From a virus: a stretch of DNA of 20,667 nucleotides. Both the position numbers and the translations under genes were made by a program. This document shows, piece by piece, positions 11,792 to 20,087 of the stretch (its first letter is position 1; each line of letters begins with the position of its first letter). Location of the stretch: IMG/VR virus record IMGVR_UViG_3300030333_003493, positions 10,223 through 30,889 of that record. The stretch is one strand, 5' to 3'. A model generated the notes under the pieces. The model had not been told where the DNA came from. It made no database searches and saw only the letters and a program-made list of their open reading frames with translations.

Positions 11792-12204
11792 AAGAATGTA
11801 TTTTTTGCATTAATATAAGTGTTTCTCTTAATGGGTTGAATAATAATGGTGATAATGGTTTTTCATACCCATATAAAGCATTATCTCCTGTAACAGGTAA
11901 GACAAAAGAATTTGCTTCAATAGATGATGTATATGGAGAATTATTGAATTGTTACCAAGAATTATTGGATAAAAATATAGACAATGTTGCTGATTCATTA
12001 TATTCAGAGCATTTTTTCTTTTGTAATACAAGTGAATTACTTGATCCTAAAATTCAACAAAGAATAAAAGAATATAACTTCTGTAAATCATTTAATTGTC
12101 CTCCATACCCATCATTACAAGAAACTCCTGCTAGAGTGGTAGATGATTTCTTACAAATAGATAATATTGTTAATACTATGAAAAGAGAAAAATCAAATGG
12201 CTAA
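11540..12204 (+). CDS. Tail assembly chaperone, frameshifted long form (GT-like, about 221 aa)
   Basis: A -1 shift on the A run at 11780-11788 would read AAA then ATA GAA GAA and continue without a stop to TAA at 12202-12204. This adds 138 residues (starting IEECIFCINISVSLNG) to the 83 of the short form. The second frame alone has no ATG until late and no ribosome site; only an internal TTG at 11836 could start it. This argues that it is expressed as a fusion. The added part contains SYPYKALSPVTGKTKEFASI, CNTSELLDPKIQQRIKEYNF and CPPYPSLQETPARVVDDFLQ. The last is the kind of Pro-rich then helical ending I recall for T domains. The frame overlaps the tape measure start by eight bases. In lambda the G and GT proteins bind the tape measure and recruit tube subunits. 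Confidence 0.72.
11780..11788 (+). promoter_or_regulatory. Slippery A9 run for -1 ribosomal frameshift
   Basis: Nine consecutive A's directly precede the 0-frame TAG at 11789-11791. In the 0 frame they read AAA AAA AAA, so A AAA AAA (11782-11788) is a canonical X XXY YYZ heptamer for tandem tRNA-Lys slippage. The -1 frame beyond it is open for 139 codons. I see no obvious strong downstream stem-loop; the stop codon next to the site could itself promote pausing. Confidence 0.72.
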
Positions 12205-14059
12205 AAATACACATATAATAGAAGTCAAAACAGTTGGTGCTACAAAAGCAAAAAAACAAGTTGATGGTGTTGGTAGCAGTTTGAAGGGAATGGCTGCTAA
12301 AGCAACTGCTGCTGTTGCTACTGCATATGCCTTTGGTAAAGCGATACAGGTTGCAACTGATCTTGCAAAACAAGCTGCAAAAGTAAAAGATTTAGAGAAT
12401 GGTTTTGATGCACTAGGGAAAAAATTAGGATTTACAAGTGGTTCATTAGATAAACTAAGAGGTGCTGTTAATGGTACTGTAAATGATATGGATCTAATGG
12501 AACAGGCAAACAATGCTATGTTGTTAGGAGTTGTTGATTCAGATGAACAAATGGCACAATTATTTGATACTGCACAAAGGTTAGGACAGGCACTTGGTGT
12601 AGATGCTACTGATGCTGTTAATTCACTTGTTACAGGTATGGGTAGGCAATCCAAACTGATGCTTGATAATTTAGGTATTATGATTGATACCAATGGAGCA
12701 TATGAAAGATATGCAGAAAAACTTGGAATTGCTACTGAAGCATTAGATGACAATCAAAAGAAACAAGCCTTCAATGAAGAAGTATTAAGAGCAGCTAGTT
12801 CAATGGTTGATGAGTTAGGTGCTGAAGCAGAAACAAGTGCTATGAGATTTGCACAAATGCAAACTTCAATATTCAATGCAGGAACAGCATTAGGTGAATT
12901 ATTTGCACCTGCTGTTGATTTAGGTGTAATTGCTATAACAGGATTAGCAGATGCTATTTCAAGTGCTATAAATTGGCAGGAAGAACTAAGAAGATCAATG
13001 GAAGAAGATGTTGTTGTATATACACAATCTGCACAGGCCTTTGATGATTGGAAAGAATCAATGCAAGGTGCTACTAAGGCACAAATTATAGGTGAACTTG
13101 TTGATTTAGGGATTGTTATGGAAGACATAAACAAGGCAACACTTAATGGTAAGGATATGATGCAGGAATATACAACTGCTATGGAAAATTCATTAAAACC
13201 TAGTGATGATTTTAAAATTATTTGGGGTGAAACAACAGATGATTTAAATGCAAACAATGAACAATTATTATATTTAATAGAATTATTAACATTGTTAGAA
13301 GAATCACAAACAGCATCAAACACTACAAGTAATGAAATGTTGACTACTTTAGAGGAAATGAATGCTAAAGAACAGGAAAGAATAGAATTAAAAGAATATC
13401 TATCTGAACTAACTGTTGAAGAATTAGAGAATATGGGATTATTTGCACTTGCAGCACAAAAAGAAGCAGAGGAACTTGAAAATTTAACAGATGCTTGGGA
13501 TAATTTTATTAAAGGGTTACAGGAAAATGCAAAGAAACAGGAACAAATAGATAAACAGGTTCTAAGAGATAAGAAAGGGCATTGGGGAGATTTAATTGGT
13601 AATTTGCAGATAGTAGGTGAAGAATTTGAAGCATTCCATAAAGTATATAAAGCAGCAGCTATTGCTAAAACAATTTATGACACTTATGAGGGCGCACAAG
13701 CAGCATACACAGGGATGGTGGAAGCATATAAAGGACAGCCTTTTGCACACGCGCTTGGGGTTGCAGCAGCACTTGCAGCAACAGCAGCAGGTTTAGCGAG
13801 GGTTCAACAGATAAGAAGGGCAGCCACAGGTGCTGATTATATAACAGATGGGCCTGAAATAATTATGGTTGGTGATAACCCAAGTGGGAGGGAGAGAGTT
13901 CAGGTTACACCTTTAGGAGGTGATCCTAATATAGATGGGCCACAAGGTGGTGGAATTACACTCAATATATCAGGAAATGTATTAACTGATGATTTTGTTG
14001 AAGATGTGTTAGTTGATAAATTACAAGAAGCCTTGAGAATGGGAGATACACTTAACTAA
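12197..14059 (+). CDS. Tail tape measure protein
   Basis: This 620-residue, largely helical protein sets tail length. An Ala-rich start (GMAAKATAAVATAYAFGKAI, 31-50) is followed by a region typical of tape measures (QALGVDATDAVNSLVTGMGR then QSKLMLDNLGIMID, 131-164). A hydrophobic stretch lies near 230-260 (LFAPAVDLGVIAITGLADAI). The long charged coiled-coil middle runs to about 480. A C-terminal Ala-rich helix precedes the ending ADYITDGPEIIMVGDNPSGR, which is common at the end of tape measures. At about 0.15 nm per residue the tail would be roughly 90 nm (estimate from the general rule). The start overlaps the chaperone frame by eight bases. The long antisense frames here are shadows. Confidence 0.88.
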   Translation: MAKNTHIIEVKTVGATKAKKQVDGVGSSLKGMAAKATAAVATAYAFGKAIQVATDLAKQAAKVKDLENGFDALGKKLGFTSGSLDKLRGAVNGTVNDMDLMEQANNAMLLGVVDSDEQMAQLFDTAQRLGQALGVDATDAVNSLVTGMGRQSKLMLDNLGIMIDTNGAYERYAEKLGIATEALDDNQKKQAFNEEVLRAASSMVDELGAEAETSAMRFAQMQTSIFNAGTALGELFAPAVDLGVIAITGLADAISSAINWQEELRRSMEEDVVVYTQSAQAFDDWKESMQGATKAQIIGELVDLGIVMEDINKATLNGKDMMQEYTTAMENSLKPSDDFKIIWGETTDDLNANNEQLLYLIELLTLLEESQTASNTTSNEMLTTLEEMNAKEQERIELKEYLSELTVEELENMGLFALAAQKEAEELENLTDAWDNFIKGLQENAKKQEQIDKQVLRDKKGHWGDLIGNLQIVGEEFEAFHKVYKAAAIAKTIYDTYEGAQAAYTGMVEAYKGQPFAHALGVAAALAATAAGLARVQQIRRAATGADYITDGPEIIMVGDNPSGRERVQVTPLGGDPNIDGPQGGGITLNISGNVLTDDFVEDVLVDKLQEALRMGDTLN

Positions 14060-17000
14060 TGATAGATTTATCTAAAAATTTCTTATCAGATGTTATATCA
14101 ACTAATGTAAATCTAAAACCTGTATTAGTTATAACTGAACAGAATAGTATAGATATACTAGAAGTTCTAACTTCTGATTCAGAACATATAACAACACCTG
14201 AAAATCCATTAGAACAATCATCTTTTATACCCTGTATTAAAAACGTATCATCAGTAAAGACATCTATTGATTATGAGAAGGGTAAATTAAAAGTCAATAG
14301 ATTAAGATGTAATCTTTATAATTATTATGATTCAAATACTACACTAGCAGAGTATTATGGAGAAACAACAACTTCTTCATCACCTATACTTATAAATAAG
14401 GATATATATTTATTTTACAAATCTCCATCAACTTACAAGCTAAATCTAGCAGATGTTATAGGTGAGGGTTCACCAACAGATAGTGATTGTGCATTAATTT
14501 ATAAAGGAACTATAAGTAGGGTTGAGTATGATGATAAGACAATAAGTATATTTGCTGAGGATCAAACACAATTAAAAATAACTGATAAACTTATTCCTTA
14601 TGCAGGGATAGAAACATTAGATCAATCAACACAAGATAGAATATTTGAGAATTATAAAGGTGAAGATACAACTGTACCAATGACTTTTGGCAGTATGAAT
14701 AGAGCATTTACACTTCCCTATTTATCTGATTTAACTGAACAGGCTATGACTGTATTATTAGATACACAGCCAACAACAGATAATTTTAGAACTGCAAGAA
14801 TACCAAAAATGTTAGAATCTACTCCTACTGAACTTCCTTATTGTCTTTACATTAAAAAAGATAATGATTATGTTGTATGGGATCATCACAATCAAACTCT
14901 TAATAGACAATATCAATTATATTCAAATTTTCATATAAATACAATAGCAGGTTCATACAGTACACTTATTGCACCTGAATTAGCACCTGTAAGTGAATAT
15001 GTCTATGGCTTATGGGATGTTAGGGGTTATATAGAAAGATATTTTGATATGTATCATTATAGTGGATCAAACAATAATACTATTCTTGATATAGATGAGC
15101 AAACACACGATACCTTAACAGGTACATTATATACTCCTGAAGGTTTAAATGATAATGGTGGATTGCCTAGAATATTTTTCAGAGCAGAAGATTTTGGTAC
15201 AGATAAACTTGTTGTTAATGCAGAAACAGCAAGAATACCATTGGCAACATCTAGGATAAAAACATCAACTAATGCAGGTGTTGGTAGATATTTATTGTTG
15301 AGATTATCACAGGGTATAGATTTACCTTTAGCAAATATATCTTATAATGGTGCTTGGGCAGGAAATACATTTTGGGCATCAGATTATATGGTATATCAAG
15401 ATCCAAATCAAGATCATCAAGGACTTCAAAGTTCTGCTCAATACTTTTTTAACGAGGCTTGGACAACAGGAGGTTTTTATTCAGGATGGTATGTTTCAGC
15501 ACTTGCTCCTGATGTTTGGTTAAAATTAATACCTGCTTTAGAAGAATTTTGGGGAAATGAATTTGATACAGATACTGCTAAACAACAACTTCAAAATGCA
15601 ATAAAACTTGGAACTGATTTACAACTAGAGGATGGTATAAGTGATCCTAGTTCTTTGAATGATTTAATAATAGATAGTACAGCAAGTATATATAGTCAAT
15701 CTCAGATGAGAAATTGGAAAAATAGTTCAAATTCAGTAGGTAATAAGTATTTTGGAAGCCAAACATCATTATCACTTGATGGGCTTGATGCAGGAAGTGA
15801 TGTTCCATATAACTATATAGAAGAATCAGATCCAACTTGGAAAAGAATATACGGATTAAATTTTGGTGCAACAGGTAGTGCTTTATCAGAAGAACAGGTT
15901 ATATCAAGTTCAACAGATATGGATGGAATAGCTATATATGAATATTTACCTCCTGAATTAGAAGATTCAGAAAAATATCAACAGGGATTAAATCTATCTA
16001 ATACAGGTTTAATACAATCTGTATTTGTTGAAAATATAACAGAAAGAGATATTTTTGCTTCTATAACAGGTAGAAAAAATTATCCGTTCTGTGAACAATT
16101 AAGTTCTACTTATTTCTCATTAAATTTAGAGAGTGTACCTGCTACAAGTCTGTTTGTAGATTTACCTACAAGTGATACTCAAATGTTAGATGGTTTTTAT
16201 GCTTTGTTCAGTTCTTGTTGGGAAAATGTTTTTGAATTTTGGGCAACAGGTAATTCATTGGGTGATGGTGTTAATGAAGGTGGCCCAACTAATGATGATA
16301 TAGAATCAGCTATTGATGAATTTTTAGAGGGTGGAGAAGTTGATACTGTTTTTGCAGATAATTTATCAGCTATTACAGGATTATCAGATGCACCTGTTTG
16401 GAACAATTACTATCTTTGGAAAGAAGTTGTATTTAAACTTATGGGATTTCAACTAAGATTAATGATGACATCTGAATTTAATATAACACAAAATTCATAT
16501 CAAGCTGTTGTAGAAGGAACAGGTGGAAACATACAAACTGTTGATCGTATATATTCAGTAGAACACTTTAGATCACTATTTAGTGAACAATGGTTAAAAT
16601 CATTTGGAAAGGTAGTAATAGAATATATCATACAAAGGCCTGTTGAGTATGATCAAAACTATTTATGGAAATTAGATTTTGCAGGTACAAGAGAACTTGA
16701 TGTAGGTTTTAGTTCGATTTTTCTTGATGTTTGGGAATCATTAGAAAAAGATTTAACAGAGAGTGTATATAGTAAGAGAACATATACGGACTACACAGAT
16801 TTGTCTTTACCAAGTTTAGATGATGATTCTTTTCTTGATTCATATATAAACAATATGTGGATCTATTTTGATGATTATGTTGATGCAATTAACAGGGCTA
16901 TGGTTGCATCTATTGATACTGCTGAAGAATTGGGCCTTACCTATGGTAGCCCTGCTGATGATCTTTCAGGATTTACTCCAAATGTTATGGGTTTTGATTT

Positions 17001-18402
17001 TGACTATAATAATATGTACACAAATTATGATTTTATTTCAGGACTACAAGGAGTAGAAGGAACTGAGGTTTTCAAAGAACAATTATTAGCATTTTATAAT
17101 ACAAGCCTTGAAGGTATTGATACAGGTGTTGAATATGCTACTACTGATGGGGTTATAACAAAACCATCTGATATAGTTATGAATATACTTGTGAATGAAA
17201 TGGAATTTGGAAAACATAATGAAGATATGACAGCAGGAAACAATATATTATATCCTGATTATACAAAATTTGATATTAATTCTTTAGAATTATCTAGGAG
17301 TGAACACTCTGATTGGAAATTATCATTATCTTTAAATAAAAAGAAAGATGGCAAAAAAATAATAGAAGAAATATTAAGAGAAAGTAAATCATATCCTAGA
17401 TTTACTGAAGATGGTAAATTTTCATTTATAACTATAAAAAATAAATACACTAATGATGATATAACTGAAACTATAAATGTATCAGATATAATATCTCATA
17501 AATTTACAACTACAAAAAGAGAAAATATTATTACAAGTGGAAAGTATTTATATAGATATGATGTTGGAACAAAGAGTTATGATTTAGAATATGATTTAAA
17601 TATTGAAGATATACTACCTGAATATGGGGTTAGTGGATATGATTATTATAATATTAAACCTGAAGATGGACATAAAGAGGTTAAACTTAAATATCATCAC
17701 CATATTCCAACTGCAAAGAATTTTGCTAAATATGACTTATTAAACAGGTGTAATCAACATAATGTAATTGAACTTTCTTTATCATTAAATTATTGTTCAC
17801 TACAAATAGGTGATATTATACATATTCCATTAATTGATGGTAAAAAAGTTTTTGGATTGGATTATAGTAAGGTTGAAATTTTAAATGGACAGCCTGTTTA
17901 TCCTCTTTGGATTATAAATGAAACAAGATTGGATCTTAAAGCATTTAAGATAAAAGCAACTCAATTACACTATTTAGGAACAGATGGGGATCACGGATTT
18001 GAAACAGCAGAAGAAGAATATCACATAGTTGGTAATATGAATCGGTTAAGCAATCAAACTTTTACAACAGGGGAAAGAATACCTAATTGGAATTTTAACC
18101 CTCTTGCAACTCAACATAATAATTTAGAAATAGCTTATTTTGATTTTAATGGTGATGGTGCTGTCAATATTGTTGATATTGTGGATGCAGTAAATACTAT
18201 ACTTGATTCTAATCCTAATATAACAATTTCACAATTACAGAGAATGACAAGATACACATATGATGGATCATACAATGGAAACAATTCTATTGATGTTACT
18301 GCTATTATTAATTTGGTAAACATTATACTTATTCAAGGTGATAATTGGTTTGATGGCTATGAATCTGTATTGTCAGGAGAAGAAGATTTGGGGGAAAGAT
18401 AA
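14059..18402 (+). CDS. Large tail hub / tail tip protein with C-terminal dockerin-like domain
   Basis: This 1447-residue protein follows the tape measure. Residues about 1-200 look like a hub or distal-tail start (LKVNRLRCNLYNYY, ALIYKGTISRVEYDDKTISI, TFGSMNRAFTLPYL). The central 250-1050 part is Tyr/Asn/Ser/Asp-rich and unassigned. About 1080-1330 matches the hub C-terminal region I recall from marine siphophages: DGKKIIEEILRESKSYPRFT, INVSDIISHKFTTTKREN, YHHHIPTAKNFAKYDLLNRC at 1212, then LQIGDIIHIPLIDG. Residues about 1355-1425 add a dockerin-like pair of calcium loops: DFNGDGAVNIVDIVDAVNTI at 1362, and a degenerate DGSYNGNNSIDVTAIINLVN at 1402. It probably forms the tail tip around the tape measure end and contacts the host. 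The start overlaps the tape measure stop. Confidence 0.78.
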   Translation: MIDLSKNFLSDVISTNVNLKPVLVITEQNSIDILEVLTSDSEHITTPENPLEQSSFIPCIKNVSSVKTSIDYEKGKLKVNRLRCNLYNYYDSNTTLAEYYGETTTSSSPILINKDIYLFYKSPSTYKLNLADVIGEGSPTDSDCALIYKGTISRVEYDDKTISIFAEDQTQLKITDKLIPYAGIETLDQSTQDRIFENYKGEDTTVPMTFGSMNRAFTLPYLSDLTEQAMTVLLDTQPTTDNFRTARIPKMLESTPTELPYCLYIKKDNDYVVWDHHNQTLNRQYQLYSNFHINTIAGSYSTLIAPELAPVSEYVYGLWDVRGYIERYFDMYHYSGSNNNTILDIDEQTHDTLTGTLYTPEGLNDNGGLPRIFFRAEDFGTDKLVVNAETARIPLATSRIKTSTNAGVGRYLLLRLSQGIDLPLANISYNGAWAGNTFWASDYMVYQDPNQDHQGLQSSAQYFFNEAWTTGGFYSGWYVSALAPDVWLKLIPALEEFWGNEFDTDTAKQQLQNAIKLGTDLQLEDGISDPSSLNDLIIDSTASIYSQSQMRNWKNSSNSVGNKYFGSQTSLSLDGLDAGSDVPYNYIEESDPTWKRIYGLNFGATGSALSEEQVISSSTDMDGIAIYEYLPPELEDSEKYQQGLNLSNTGLIQSVFVENITERDIFASITGRKNYPFCEQLSSTYFSLNLESVPATSLFVDLPTSDTQMLDGFYALFSSCWENVFEFWATGNSLGDGVNEGGPTNDDIESAIDEFLEGGEVDTVFADNLSAITGLSDAPVWNNYYLWKEVVFKLMGFQLRLMMTSEFNITQNSYQAVVEGTGGNIQTVDRIYSVEHFRSLFSEQWLKSFGKVVIEYIIQRPVEYDQNYLWKLDFAGTRELDVGFSSIFLDVWESLEKDLTESVYSKRTYTDYTDLSLPSLDDDSFLDSYINNMWIYFDDYVDAINRAMVASIDTAEELGLTYGSPADDLSGFTPNVMGFDFDYNNMYTNYDFISGLQGVEGTEVFKEQLLAFYNTSLEGIDTGVEYATTDGVITKPSDIVMNILVNEMEFGKHNEDMTAGNNILYPDYTKFDINSLELSRSEHSDWKLSLSLNKKKDGKKIIEEILRESKSYPRFTEDGKFSFITIKNKYTNDDITETINVSDIISHKFTTTKRENIITSGKYLYRYDVGTKSYDLEYDLNIEDILPEYGVSGYDYYNIKPEDGHKEVKLKYHHHIPTAKNFAKYDLLNRCNQHNVIELSLSLNYCSLQIGDIIHIPLIDGKKVFGLDYSKVEILNGQPVYPLWIINETRLDLKAFKIKATQLHYLGTDGDHGFETAEEEYHIVGNMNRLSNQTFTTGERIPNWNFNPLATQHNNLEIAYFDFNGDGAVNIVDIVDAVNTILDSNPNITISQLQRMTRYTYDGSYNGNNSIDVTAIINLVNIILIQGDNWFDGYESVLSGEEDLGER

Positions 18403-18909
18403 TTGGCAAATATTAATATACAAACACTAAACAATGATTTATATATATATAAGGACAGGGTATCAATAAAATCTGATTATGCTTTTCAGGGAATATTAAT
18501 AGATTATAATGAATCAAAACCTAGTGGATCAAGGCCATCATTTTCAAGTTTATTACCTAATAACTATATAGTAAGATCAGGTTTAAATAAAATACTTATT
18601 TTAAAATTAAACCATCAAAATGAAAATCAATATGTTGGAACTGAAACAGATTTATTCACAAAACAAGATGATTTTTATATCACTAATGCTGTTCTTGTTA
18701 GACAAGATTTAGGAAAATCCAACTTAGCAATAAATTATAGTTCTATTGAAACTTGGGATAATCTTGATATGACTTGGGAAACATTAACAAGAAAATGGGA
18801 AGATATTTCTTATGATGGTAAATCAAAAATACCAAAATGGCATAGAGTTAATTCCTTTGATAAAGAATTAAACAAAGTAACACAAAAAAAAGAATTGAGG
18901 AATAAATGA
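18403..18909 (+). CDS. Tail-associated protein with Trp heptad repeat (168 aa), TTG start
   Basis: This frame begins immediately after the hub TAA in the same reading frame, so the first usable codon is TTG at 18403. No in-frame ATG occurs until well into the conserved-looking region, so TTG is the most likely start; GGGGG lies upstream. The first 70 residues are Asn/Ser/Ile-rich. Residues 118-132 show Trp at seven-residue spacing (WDNLDMTWETLTRKWEDI; W118, W125, W132), with another Trp at 146. I recall similar spaced-Trp motifs in marine phage tail proteins. The C-terminus is Lys-rich. It lies between hub and distal tail protein, so it is probably a minor tail-tip component. No family is assigned. 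Confidence 0.62.
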   Translation: MANINIQTLNNDLYIYKDRVSIKSDYAFQGILIDYNESKPSGSRPSFSSLLPNNYIVRSGLNKILILKLNHQNENQYVGTETDLFTKQDDFYITNAVLVRQDLGKSNLAINYSSIETWDNLDMTWETLTRKWEDISYDGKSKIPKWHRVNSFDKELNKVTQKKELRNK

Positions 18910-20087
18910 CAACAAATTACTATCAAACACCAACAAGGCCTACATTATATGCTTCTTACTTATTATACCAATATGCTTCAGGAGCATTAGATAAATATGG
19001 AGTACCGGCAGGTATATCTATTGGAACACATCCTGAAACATTACAAGATATGGAAATTCCTGCTGAACCATATTCACCATTAGAAATGATAAGAATGTTA
19101 CAACTAGAACCATCAAGAACATCATATATTTATGATCCTGAAGATAGAGGACAAATTACTATGAATTATAAACTTGTTCCTGATAATTTTTCTTGGACAC
19201 CTGAGTTAGGTAATGATATATGGAAAAATATAAATTCTTTATTTTTATTAGGACATAATTTTGCTGATTGTGAAGCATCTATTACCTTTGGTGGTGGTGA
19301 TACTGATTCTGAAGATGATTTTACAGAAATAGCAACTTCTAATGCTGTTAATAATATATCTGAACCTGAATATAATGGTTGGAGTTTAACAAATTTTTCT
19401 GAATCTGCTAATTATCAATATTTTAAGATAAGAATTAGATCAAGAGCATATCAAGATGATTTTTTAAATCCATTTGTTCAACAGCCTTTAAAGTTAGGTT
19501 CTTTGTTTTTAGGAAACAGATATACATTCCCTATAAATTGTAATATGAATACAAAAACATCTTATGATTATGGTGTTAAAAGAAGTAAAACAATTTCAGG
19601 AAAAACTTTAAGTAAAGCAAATTGGACAAAACCAAACTCTTGGGGTGGATATGAACCATTTGGACTTAGTGTTCCATTTGATCCAAGTAATAATGATGAT
19701 AATTTTTTAAGAAGAACAGGTTTAAGAACTTGGAGTATATCATTTGATAGTTTAAATCCTAGTAAAGTTATGAATCAAAATCCTATGCTTAATACATATG
19801 GTTGGACTTCACAAGACACAGAAAACGACAATATAACAGGTGAGGGTGATAGTTTGGATAATATTATAGGTGTAACATCTACATTTGCATCACCTGAAGG
19901 AAATGATTTCTTTACTTCCATTGTACACCGTTCACTAGGTGGGCATCTTCCAATGTTATTGCAGTTAGACAGAGATAATTATTCTCCACATAACTTTGCA
20001 ATAGTTCGTATGAATCCAAATTATACAATAACTCAAAAATCTCCTAACTTATATAATATAAAGATAGTATTAGAAGAACAAGTTTAG
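18906..20087 (+). CDS. Distal tail protein of the marine siphophage type
   Basis: This 393-residue protein overlaps the previous stop by four bases (ATGA) and has GAGGA upstream. Its C-terminal third contains LRTWSISFDSLNP, then NDFFTSIVHRSLGGHLPMLL and PHNFAIVRMNPNYTITQKSP, ending NLYNIKIVLEEQV. I recall this order (TWS-F strand, then F-VI-H---GG-LP, then -FAI-R, then YN-K) from tail proteins that close the tail module in marine siphophages. Its N-terminal part is more variable (YSPLEMIRMLQLEPSRTSYI). It is probably a ring or adaptor at the tail tip, or a spike base. A terminator follows it, marking the end of the structural operon. Confidence 0.62.
   Translation: MTTNYYQTPTRPTLYASYLLYQYASGALDKYGVPAGISIGTHPETLQDMEIPAEPYSPLEMIRMLQLEPSRTSYIYDPEDRGQITMNYKLVPDNFSWTPELGNDIWKNINSLFLLGHNFADCEASITFGGGDTDSEDDFTEIATSNAVNNISEPEYNGWSLTNFSESANYQYFKIRIRSRAYQDDFLNPFVQQPLKLGSLFLGNRYTFPINCNMNTKTSYDYGVKRSKTISGKTLSKANWTKPNSWGGYEPFGLSVPFDPSNNDDNFLRRTGLRTWSISFDSLNPSKVMNQNPMLNTYGWTSQDTENDNITGEGDSLDNIIGVTSTFASPEGNDFFTSIVHRSLGGHLPMLLQLDRDNYSPHNFAIVRMNPNYTITQKSPNLYNIKIVLEEQV

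Follow-up and report, generated by a model that had tools for sequence, protein, structure and literature searches.

A phage tail hub that ends in a dockerin-fold domain, a possible module for binding host-surface cohesins

Dockerins are calcium-loop plugs by means of which bacteria join secreted proteins to each other or to their own surface. Here, we describe a domain of dockerin fold that lies at the C-terminal end of a gpJ-type tail hub encoded in a 20,667-nucleotide stretch of viral DNA (the window, in all that follows), which covers bases 10223-30889 of the 30,889-base IMG/VR virus record IMGVR_UViG_3300030333_003493 and thus reaches the end of that record. That the domain is there, and that it is a feature of a whole, large family of hubs from uncultured marine phages, we regard as nearly certain. 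As for its role, we put forward tentatively, at somewhat below even chances, that in a whole marine phage family a captured dockerin serves for receptor binding, and that entry into Marinimicrobia proceeds via the cohesins with which these bacteria would display their exoproteins in a cellulosome-like surface system. To our knowledge, few receptors have been named for phages that infect uncultured marine bacteria, and a dockerin at the end of a hub points to a receptor class, the cohesins, as well as to a short list of candidate host proteins, with no host culture needed. If the proposal is true, phages too use for entry the cohesin-dockerin chemistry familiar from the assembly of cell surfaces, and the large dockerin and cohesin repertoires of SAR406 are under phage selection.

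Window positions 18142-18330 correspond exactly to hub residues 1362-1424 and have, according to the structural model, the layout of a type I dockerin, i.e. two tandem loop-helix repeats and a linker over about 60 residues. Repeat 1 (residues 1362-1382, DFNGDGAVNIVDIVDAVNTIL) follows the type I ligand rule, with all five side-chain calcium positions (1, 3, 5, 9 and 12) intact as D1362, N1364, D1366, N1370 and D1373. Repeat 2 (SYNGNNSIDVTAIINLVNIIL) starts at residue 1404, 42 residues after repeat 1, and departs from the rule, having lost positions 1 (S1404) and 12 (A1415); because of this loss the window copy is filed as a divergent dockerin-fold domain and not as a canonical type I dockerin. 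The hub and its parts are as follows.

14059-18402, + strand: tail hub gene, 1447 amino acids, lambda gpJ/gp27-like; an open reading frame (ORF) with a core fold match, directly 3' of the tape measure gene
17137-17988, + strand: conserved hub core, residues 1027-1310 (AlphaFold2 residues 1-284, most blocks with a predicted local distance difference test score, pLDDT, above 90; VIA Z 17.6)
17989-18141, + strand: linker from core to dockerin, residues 1311-1361, from model and alignment; the length after the core varies widely among relatives
18142-18177, + strand: calcium loop 1, residues 1362-1373, from sequence, all five side-chain ligand positions intact
18169-18204, + strand: dockerin helix 1, residues 1371-1382, from model secondary structure (H345-356 / H32-43)
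18226-18249, + strand: linker helix, residues 1390-1397, from model secondary structure (H364-371 / H51-58)
18268-18303, + strand: degenerate loop 2, residues 1404-1415, from sequence and alignment columns, with S and A at ligand positions 1 and 12
18295-18351, + strand: dockerin helix 2, residues 1413-1431 (domain model, H74-92; the longer model has 1413-1438)

Ligand conservation was counted in 52 hub tails selected for carrying the domain. The residues aligned with D1362 and D1373 are D in all 52 and position 5 of the first loop is D in 49, while repeat 2 has D at position 1 in 40 and at position 12 in 45 of the tails.

With Pfam Dockerin_1 (PF00404, cut-off 22.9 bits), the last 100 residues of the window hub reach 17.3 bits (E 0.0056) and the whole hub 12.9 bits (E 0.14), both below the cut-off. 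A host-only profile, made from 62 tandem dockerins of Marinimicrobia with no phage sequence included, gives the last 108 residues 42.8 bits against 8.2 bits for the best of 1000 shuffles, by which chance similarity of the hub end to dockerins is ruled out; among 30 other proteins of the window and the region upstream, the best match to the same profile has only E 0.37. The AlphaFold2 domain model, for which the 52 hub tails were used, has a mean pLDDT of 86.5, exceeds 80 in all blocks except the last and runs in the order loop-helix, linker helix, loop-helix. Foldseek against the PDB placed dockerins in the top 8 of 16 rows with probabilities of 0.97-0.51, yet with E values of 0.42-3.4. In a VIA comparison of 41 chains, the top 14 rows were dockerins (Z 7.5-5.1 over 52-67 residues) and the next row fell to Z 3.5, a type II complex chain giving Z 2.2 against the domain model; a Z below 8 is not decisive alone, and the argument is the uniformity of the dockerin list. 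Judged by their titles, many of the matched PDB dockerins come from cohesin complexes, and the tail of a sibling hub (L026) matches the xylanase Y dockerins 2ccl_B (E 2.6e-9) and 1ohz_B (E 7.3e-8). The host-only profile and the model matches thus support a dockerin fold in the window copy itself, beyond its relatives.

The protein that carries the domain is, by the model, a gpJ/gp27-type central tail hub. AlphaFold2 modelled hub residues 1027-1447 with a mean pLDDT of 88.1, and a VIA comparison aligned the core with tail-tip or baseplate chains of lambda, JBD30 and Chi (8iyk_F, 8rk3_b and 8vjh_A) at Z 17.6 and a root-mean-square deviation of 3.5-3.6 over 235-238 residues, and with T5 tail-tip chains at Z 12.0-11.5; we take the matched chains of lambda and T5 to be those named gpJ and pb3, respectively. 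In nearly every row the hub-fold matches cover model residues 1-287. Fold searches with the long model led to hub folds, and dockerin matches appeared once the domain was folded alone. The hub gene also adjoins the tape measure gene in the tail cluster, and the hub-core profile matches 138 viral frames. Searched as a whole, the hub stayed below the Pfam cut-offs, matched no PHROG at E<=0.01 and gave nothing by tblastn against the phage collection. In lambda gpJ the receptor-binding part lies at the C-terminus; given the hub-like core, the dockerin therefore sits where a receptor-binding part would be expected.

Used as single queries, neither the whole hub of the window nor the 100 residues at its end led to a confirmed relative in the viral contig collection (viral_contigs), and a sibling hub end had no match in the phage collection; access to the family came only from DNA patterns together with a small alignment, a 21-row alignment being too diverse for locus search. 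Route one started from the dockerin loop, which as a DNA pattern met at least 120 stretches in viral_contigs, and among the 120 loci listed, 46 have a frame matching the hub-core profile and 44 match the hub core, by BLAST, within the dockerin-bearing frame itself. Route two was independent of the dockerin and consisted of a hub-core pattern (110 stretches, including 92 new loci) and an alignment search (80 of 106 loci kept). Clustering at 95% core identity yielded 130 clusters, 124 of them with a complete 3' end, and 97 of the latter hold a route-two locus. A hub-tail profile, built from members of the tallied set, detects a dockerin in 82 of these 97 clusters, 80 times at the C-terminus and twice after the core; one of the 15 clusters without it (L139) has an over-cut-off Pfam dockerin match within the hub ORF. 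The Pfam tally is independent of that profile and finds Dockerin_1 at E<=0.01 in 75 of 94 hub tails collected via the hub core (three dockerin-less stubs excluded). Seven more core-pattern loci, already known from route one, were left uncounted, and as all seven bear a dockerin, the prevalence count is conservative. The host-only profile recovers 107 of 120 hub tails from both routes, and the domain is common to hubs whose cores are just 27-49% identical to that of the window.

In 49 viral records selected for their hubs, PF00404 has 47 matches at E<=1, spread over 40 records and without exception within the hub ORF (coordinates confirmed this for 46 of them, in 39 records, and the 47th, in G000, is in the window hub), and it exceeds the Pfam cut-off in 30 records. 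No cohesin over cut-off is encoded in the 49 records, and one weak match has 12.6 bits; the records may be fragmentary and the absence is weak evidence, which nevertheless makes a partner outside the virion likelier. Gain and loss of the dockerin were read from a quick tree, where the starred group of 12 rows to which the window belongs has 9 members that carry the domain and 3 that lack it, and the starred branches force at least seven changes; dockerin-less hubs are also present in other clades.

An initial annotation of the window had proposed, from the letters alone, that the tail hub ends in a dockerin-type domain. The host-only profile and the dockerins that head the model's PDB matches bear this out; the paired loop-helix fold is present in the AlphaFold2 model, and the domain is not absent from the relatives, most clusters of which carry it. 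Its description of a strong type I loop-helix with a second, degenerate repeat 40 residues later agrees with the intact ligands of repeat 1 and the degraded repeat found 42 residues on, and as a type I dockerin the window copy stays under the Pfam cut-off; the dockerin I profile search that the annotation suggested likewise succeeds in the relatives and falls short in the window itself. Of the cohesin search that it suggested, the viral part gave nothing over cut-off and the search of the proposed hosts, described below, was positive.

By analogy, we consider Marinimicrobia (Neomarinimicrobiota, SAR406) the probable hosts of the dockerin-bearing phages. A stricter pattern of the hub-type dockerin met at least 114 loci in the genome contig collection (genome_contigs); by a count of titles by eye, 75 of the 114 loci listed belong to Neomarinimicrobiota or Marinimicrobia, 8 to 'bacterium TMED' and 31 to others, and the 'bacterium TMED' genomes G054, G065 and G073 as well as three 'FCB group' loci (G075) among the 31 others belong to the phylum of G055. 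PF00404 is found in all of the 25 Marinimicrobia genomes chosen because they carry a hub-type dockerin, at 1-105 places in each. When 159 hub repeats were compared with 40 host repeats at positions that the search expressions had left free, the shares in hub and host were 50% and 95% for L at position 11, 75% and 72% for V at position 14, 61% and 87% for N at position 18, and 75% and 80% for I at position 20; positions 10, 11, 17 and 18 of a dockerin presumably face the cohesin. Of 245 genomes from the phylum, four (G171, G245, G246 and G247) have homologues of the hub core (best E 9.6e-51) on contigs of 31-502 kb, and since G246 holds homologues of the large terminase gene (terL), portal, p8759, tape measure and hub together on a 93-kb contig, the hub loci of Marinimicrobia may be called prophage-like from their gene content. 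The hub core had no match in 398 genomes from the phylum of one that bears the title Proteobacteria, an empty result that is weak alone; the same query did match in the other two phyla scanned.

A cohesin (PF00963, E<=1e-3) was found in 23 of the 25 chosen Marinimicrobia genomes, many times in frames of about 250 codons. Six such short proteins, two of which are 96% identical, were scanned in full; they begin, by eye, with a hydrophobic stretch, match the cohesin profile once and end in a sequence of the NYPNPFNP type; all six match Por_Secre_tail at E<=7e-4, two of them over cut-off, and from these matches to sorting tails of the type IX secretion system (T9SS) attachment to the cell surface is predicted. 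At E<=1e-6, a profile of their cohesin part matches 73 of the phylum's 245 genomes; for 29 of these the match lies in a frame of 221-292 codons and has E<=1e-17. These 29 include 21 of the 25 dockerin-rich genomes; in G059 a 295-codon frame matches less strongly, G067 (49 dockerin places) matches in a long frame only, and G063 and G072 (4 and 1 dockerin places) are absent from the matches, their membership in the 245 not being indicated. Cohesin matches of Marinimicrobia also lie in long frames of 1000-3000 codons. Two further frames differ in build. G063 has a 293-codon cohesin frame (L457, G063:C18) with a Cys after the hydrophobic start and, by eye, no T9SS-type end; such a lipoprotein-like protein is a possible second way of anchoring a cohesin. 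In G066 (L443, G066:C9), a cohesin is followed by a C-terminal tandem dockerin in an adaptor-like arrangement.

The proposed mechanism is that the end of the hub (residues 1362-1424) would act as a dockerin at the receptor-binding position and that its calcium-loop helices would dock onto a cohesin at the host surface. The partner would probably be the short secreted Marinimicrobia protein with a signal peptide, one cohesin and a type IX sorting tail, or else another host cohesin, and the phage would thereby mimic the dockerin-tagged exoproteins of its host. The analysis itself shows the dockerin and hub folds (by model), a C-terminal position that holds across the family, a sequence type like that of the proposed hosts, and dockerins and cohesins in the genomes of these hosts; the pairing of these particular dockerins and cohesins, its service in adsorption and the host itself are what we infer. 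That the hub dockerin docks to a host-surface cohesin as its receptor, the leading option among those that the initial annotation had offered, appears to us evenly balanced.

Several observations weigh against this reading. Repeat 2 is degraded in the window, and in four close relatives from the window's clade (L221, L222, L223 and L225, which make up three clusters, L223 and L225 being one) the hub ends three residues past the core and is directly followed by a p18403 homologue, a clean loss by which the dockerin is dispensable in this clade. The hubs in Marinimicrobia genomes lack the dockerin, and the genomes concerned, G171, G245, G246 and G247, have 0, 2, 0 and 1 dockerin places, compared with 55 and 50 in two dockerin-rich genomes; these counts fit a pairing of dockerin hubs with dockerin-rich hosts (n=4), and they leave the host link of the dockerin-bearing phages resting on analogy. 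In the phylum to which a Bacteroidales genome belongs, 2 of 395 genomes have weaker hub-core matches (E 1.3e-15 and 5.7e-9), and a hub-core scan of genome_contigs found no relative. With size-matched profiles of 7 sequences each, the window scores 34.1 bits with Marinimicrobia (29.2-40.8) and 36.3 bits with other bacteria; over 118 sequences (hub tails and the window), the Marinimicrobia profiles come out ahead for a mean of 75.6 (range 55-91), the median margin being 2 bits; as such profiles do not separate the two for the window, assigning the host from dockerin type alone was rejected. The likeness of hub and host repeats at the recognition positions may partly reflect a constraint of the fold, and the cohesin matches of the six short proteins are modest (E 1.8e-4 to 2.5e-7, five over cut-off).

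The domain could also be a calcium-stabilised terminal cap that merely folds or protects the C-terminus or trimer of the hub and has no partner. Sea water is rich in calcium, and the invariant D1362 and D1373 of loop 1, together with the decay of loop 2 in the window and some relatives, would suit such a cap. Nevertheless, both loops are kept in most of the aligned tails, the hub tails share residues with host dockerins at free positions, the domain is lost cleanly, and many of the dockerins it resembles are in cohesin complexes, so that we find the cap unlikely. Docking of another tail protein, which the initial annotation had also offered, is not favoured either. Here the hub dockerin would hold, for example, a side fibre with an unrecognised cohesin-like fold, as suggested by the nature of dockerins as assembly plugs and by the further genes 3' of the hub, p18906 being without Pfam or PHROG match and p18403 without PHROG match. 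The 49 viral records, which are possibly fragments, hold no over-cut-off cohesin and just the one weak match, and homologues of p18403 and p18906 persist in the dockerin-less relatives G045 and G046, making this arrangement quite unlikely.

Binding of a host cohesin need not concern the receptor step, as the dockerin could capture soluble host cohesins or let the virion attach to shared extracellular cohesin scaffolds on particles. The long cohesin frames of Marinimicrobia and the protein with both cohesin and dockerin speak for this option, which we consider improbable given that the six short cohesin proteins match T9SS sorting tails and are predicted to be surface-attached. Finally, the repeated changes forced on the quick tree would be in line with a recent, functionless passenger taken from host secreted proteins; a domain that is shared by hubs with such divergent cores, carried by 82 of 97 clusters and conserved at its ligand positions is, however, very improbable as a passenger. 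Docking to a host-surface cohesin remains the reading that we prefer.

The genes of the window form a head-to-tail cassette with the major head protein, a lysozyme-like, an exonuclease-like and a Mu gp36-like gene, the tube, the tape measure, the hub and downstream genes. The neighbours of the hub are as follows.

12197-14059, + strand: tape measure gene (PHROG 3779, E 2.5e-16), immediately upstream of the hub
18403-18909, + strand: downstream gene p18403, 168 amino acids, an ORF with homologues retained by dockerin-less relatives; scanned against PHROG only
18906-20087, + strand: downstream gene p18906, 393 amino acids, an ORF with homologues close to the hub in many relatives

The major head protein and the exonuclease-like gene were assigned by PHROG, the Mu gp36-like gene is below the Pfam cut-off, and the gene at 1434-1886, which lies directly 3' of the head protein and within the structural cassette, is presumably lysozyme-like from its own sequence. 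The major head protein (316-1221) is 29-31% identical to its counterparts in G022, G024, G044, G045 and G047 and 47-50% in G014, G028 and G043, and portal identity is 64-80% in relatives whose head protein identity varies; an exchange of head protein genes among relatives is possible from these identities. Matches to the terminase are all below 60% identity and are spread over 930 phage records of many hosts, so that the terminase names no host. Just before window base 1, at the junction (G000:C1), a brief stretch is unread and appears as four X when translated.

Dockerin-type loops were also seen elsewhere in viral contigs. Small frames of 80-134 codons with loops of the DVNxDGKVNxxDVK type, Lys-rich ends and, in several cases, a hydrophobic N-terminus were found repeatedly, at L006, L010, L011, L024, L033, L062, L065, L073, L076, L077 and L104; they represent a different, unexplained use of dockerin- or EF-hand-like loops. 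Similar tandem-dockerin protein ends occur in L059, L064, L078 and L079, three of them in contigs of 52-113 kb, and the stretch before the dockerin in L064 and L078 (YPGVYSKI and YPGVYSRI) is one that we take to be trypsin-like. L056 and L100 have a single dockerin-type loop (DLNLDGKVNVEDI and DINHDGEINVDDI) inside a frame that presumably resembles a phage muramidase.

Among known systems, the cellulosomal type I dockerins (PF00404; 1ohz_B, 2ccl_B) share with the hub domain the tandem loop-helix fold, the calcium ligands of repeat 1 and homology to sibling hub tails, and they are C-terminal in many enzymes. They differ in being part of secreted enzymes and not of a tail hub, and loop 2 is degraded in the window; furthermore, positions 10/11 and 17/18 are mostly V/I-L and V/I-N in the hub repeats and S-T and K-R in the clostridial 1ohz_B. 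The C-terminal dockerins of Marinimicrobia are alike in tandem layout, in their frequent place at the extreme C-terminus and in their residues position by position, but they are carried by predicted exoproteins whereas the hub is part of the virion, and their type is also shared with other bacteria. In Cloacimonadota, the pertinent passages of PMC8542988 present a cohesin protein whose C-terminal domain is inferred to attach it to the cell's own surface, along with dockerin-tagged secreted proteins; that protein is scaffoldin-like with 3755 amino acids, unlike the single-cohesin Marinimicrobia proteins of about 250, and those passages concern no phage. For gene 40 of the Vibrio phage VvAW1, homology to a dockerin type I protein is reported in the relevant part of PMC3558961, where it is discussed with a possible attP site and not as a tail hub, and the portions of PMC5967307 and PMC9377139 that mention dockerin do so in other contexts; judged by the titles and abstracts listed, searches of the open PMC literature yielded no paper on a dockerin in a phage tail hub. 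The hubs of lambda, Chi, JBD30 and T5, lastly, resemble the window hub in their core fold (Z 17.6-11.5 over about 235 residues) and in the place of the hub gene after the tape measure, and differ from it in that the C-terminal module of the window hub is a dockerin.

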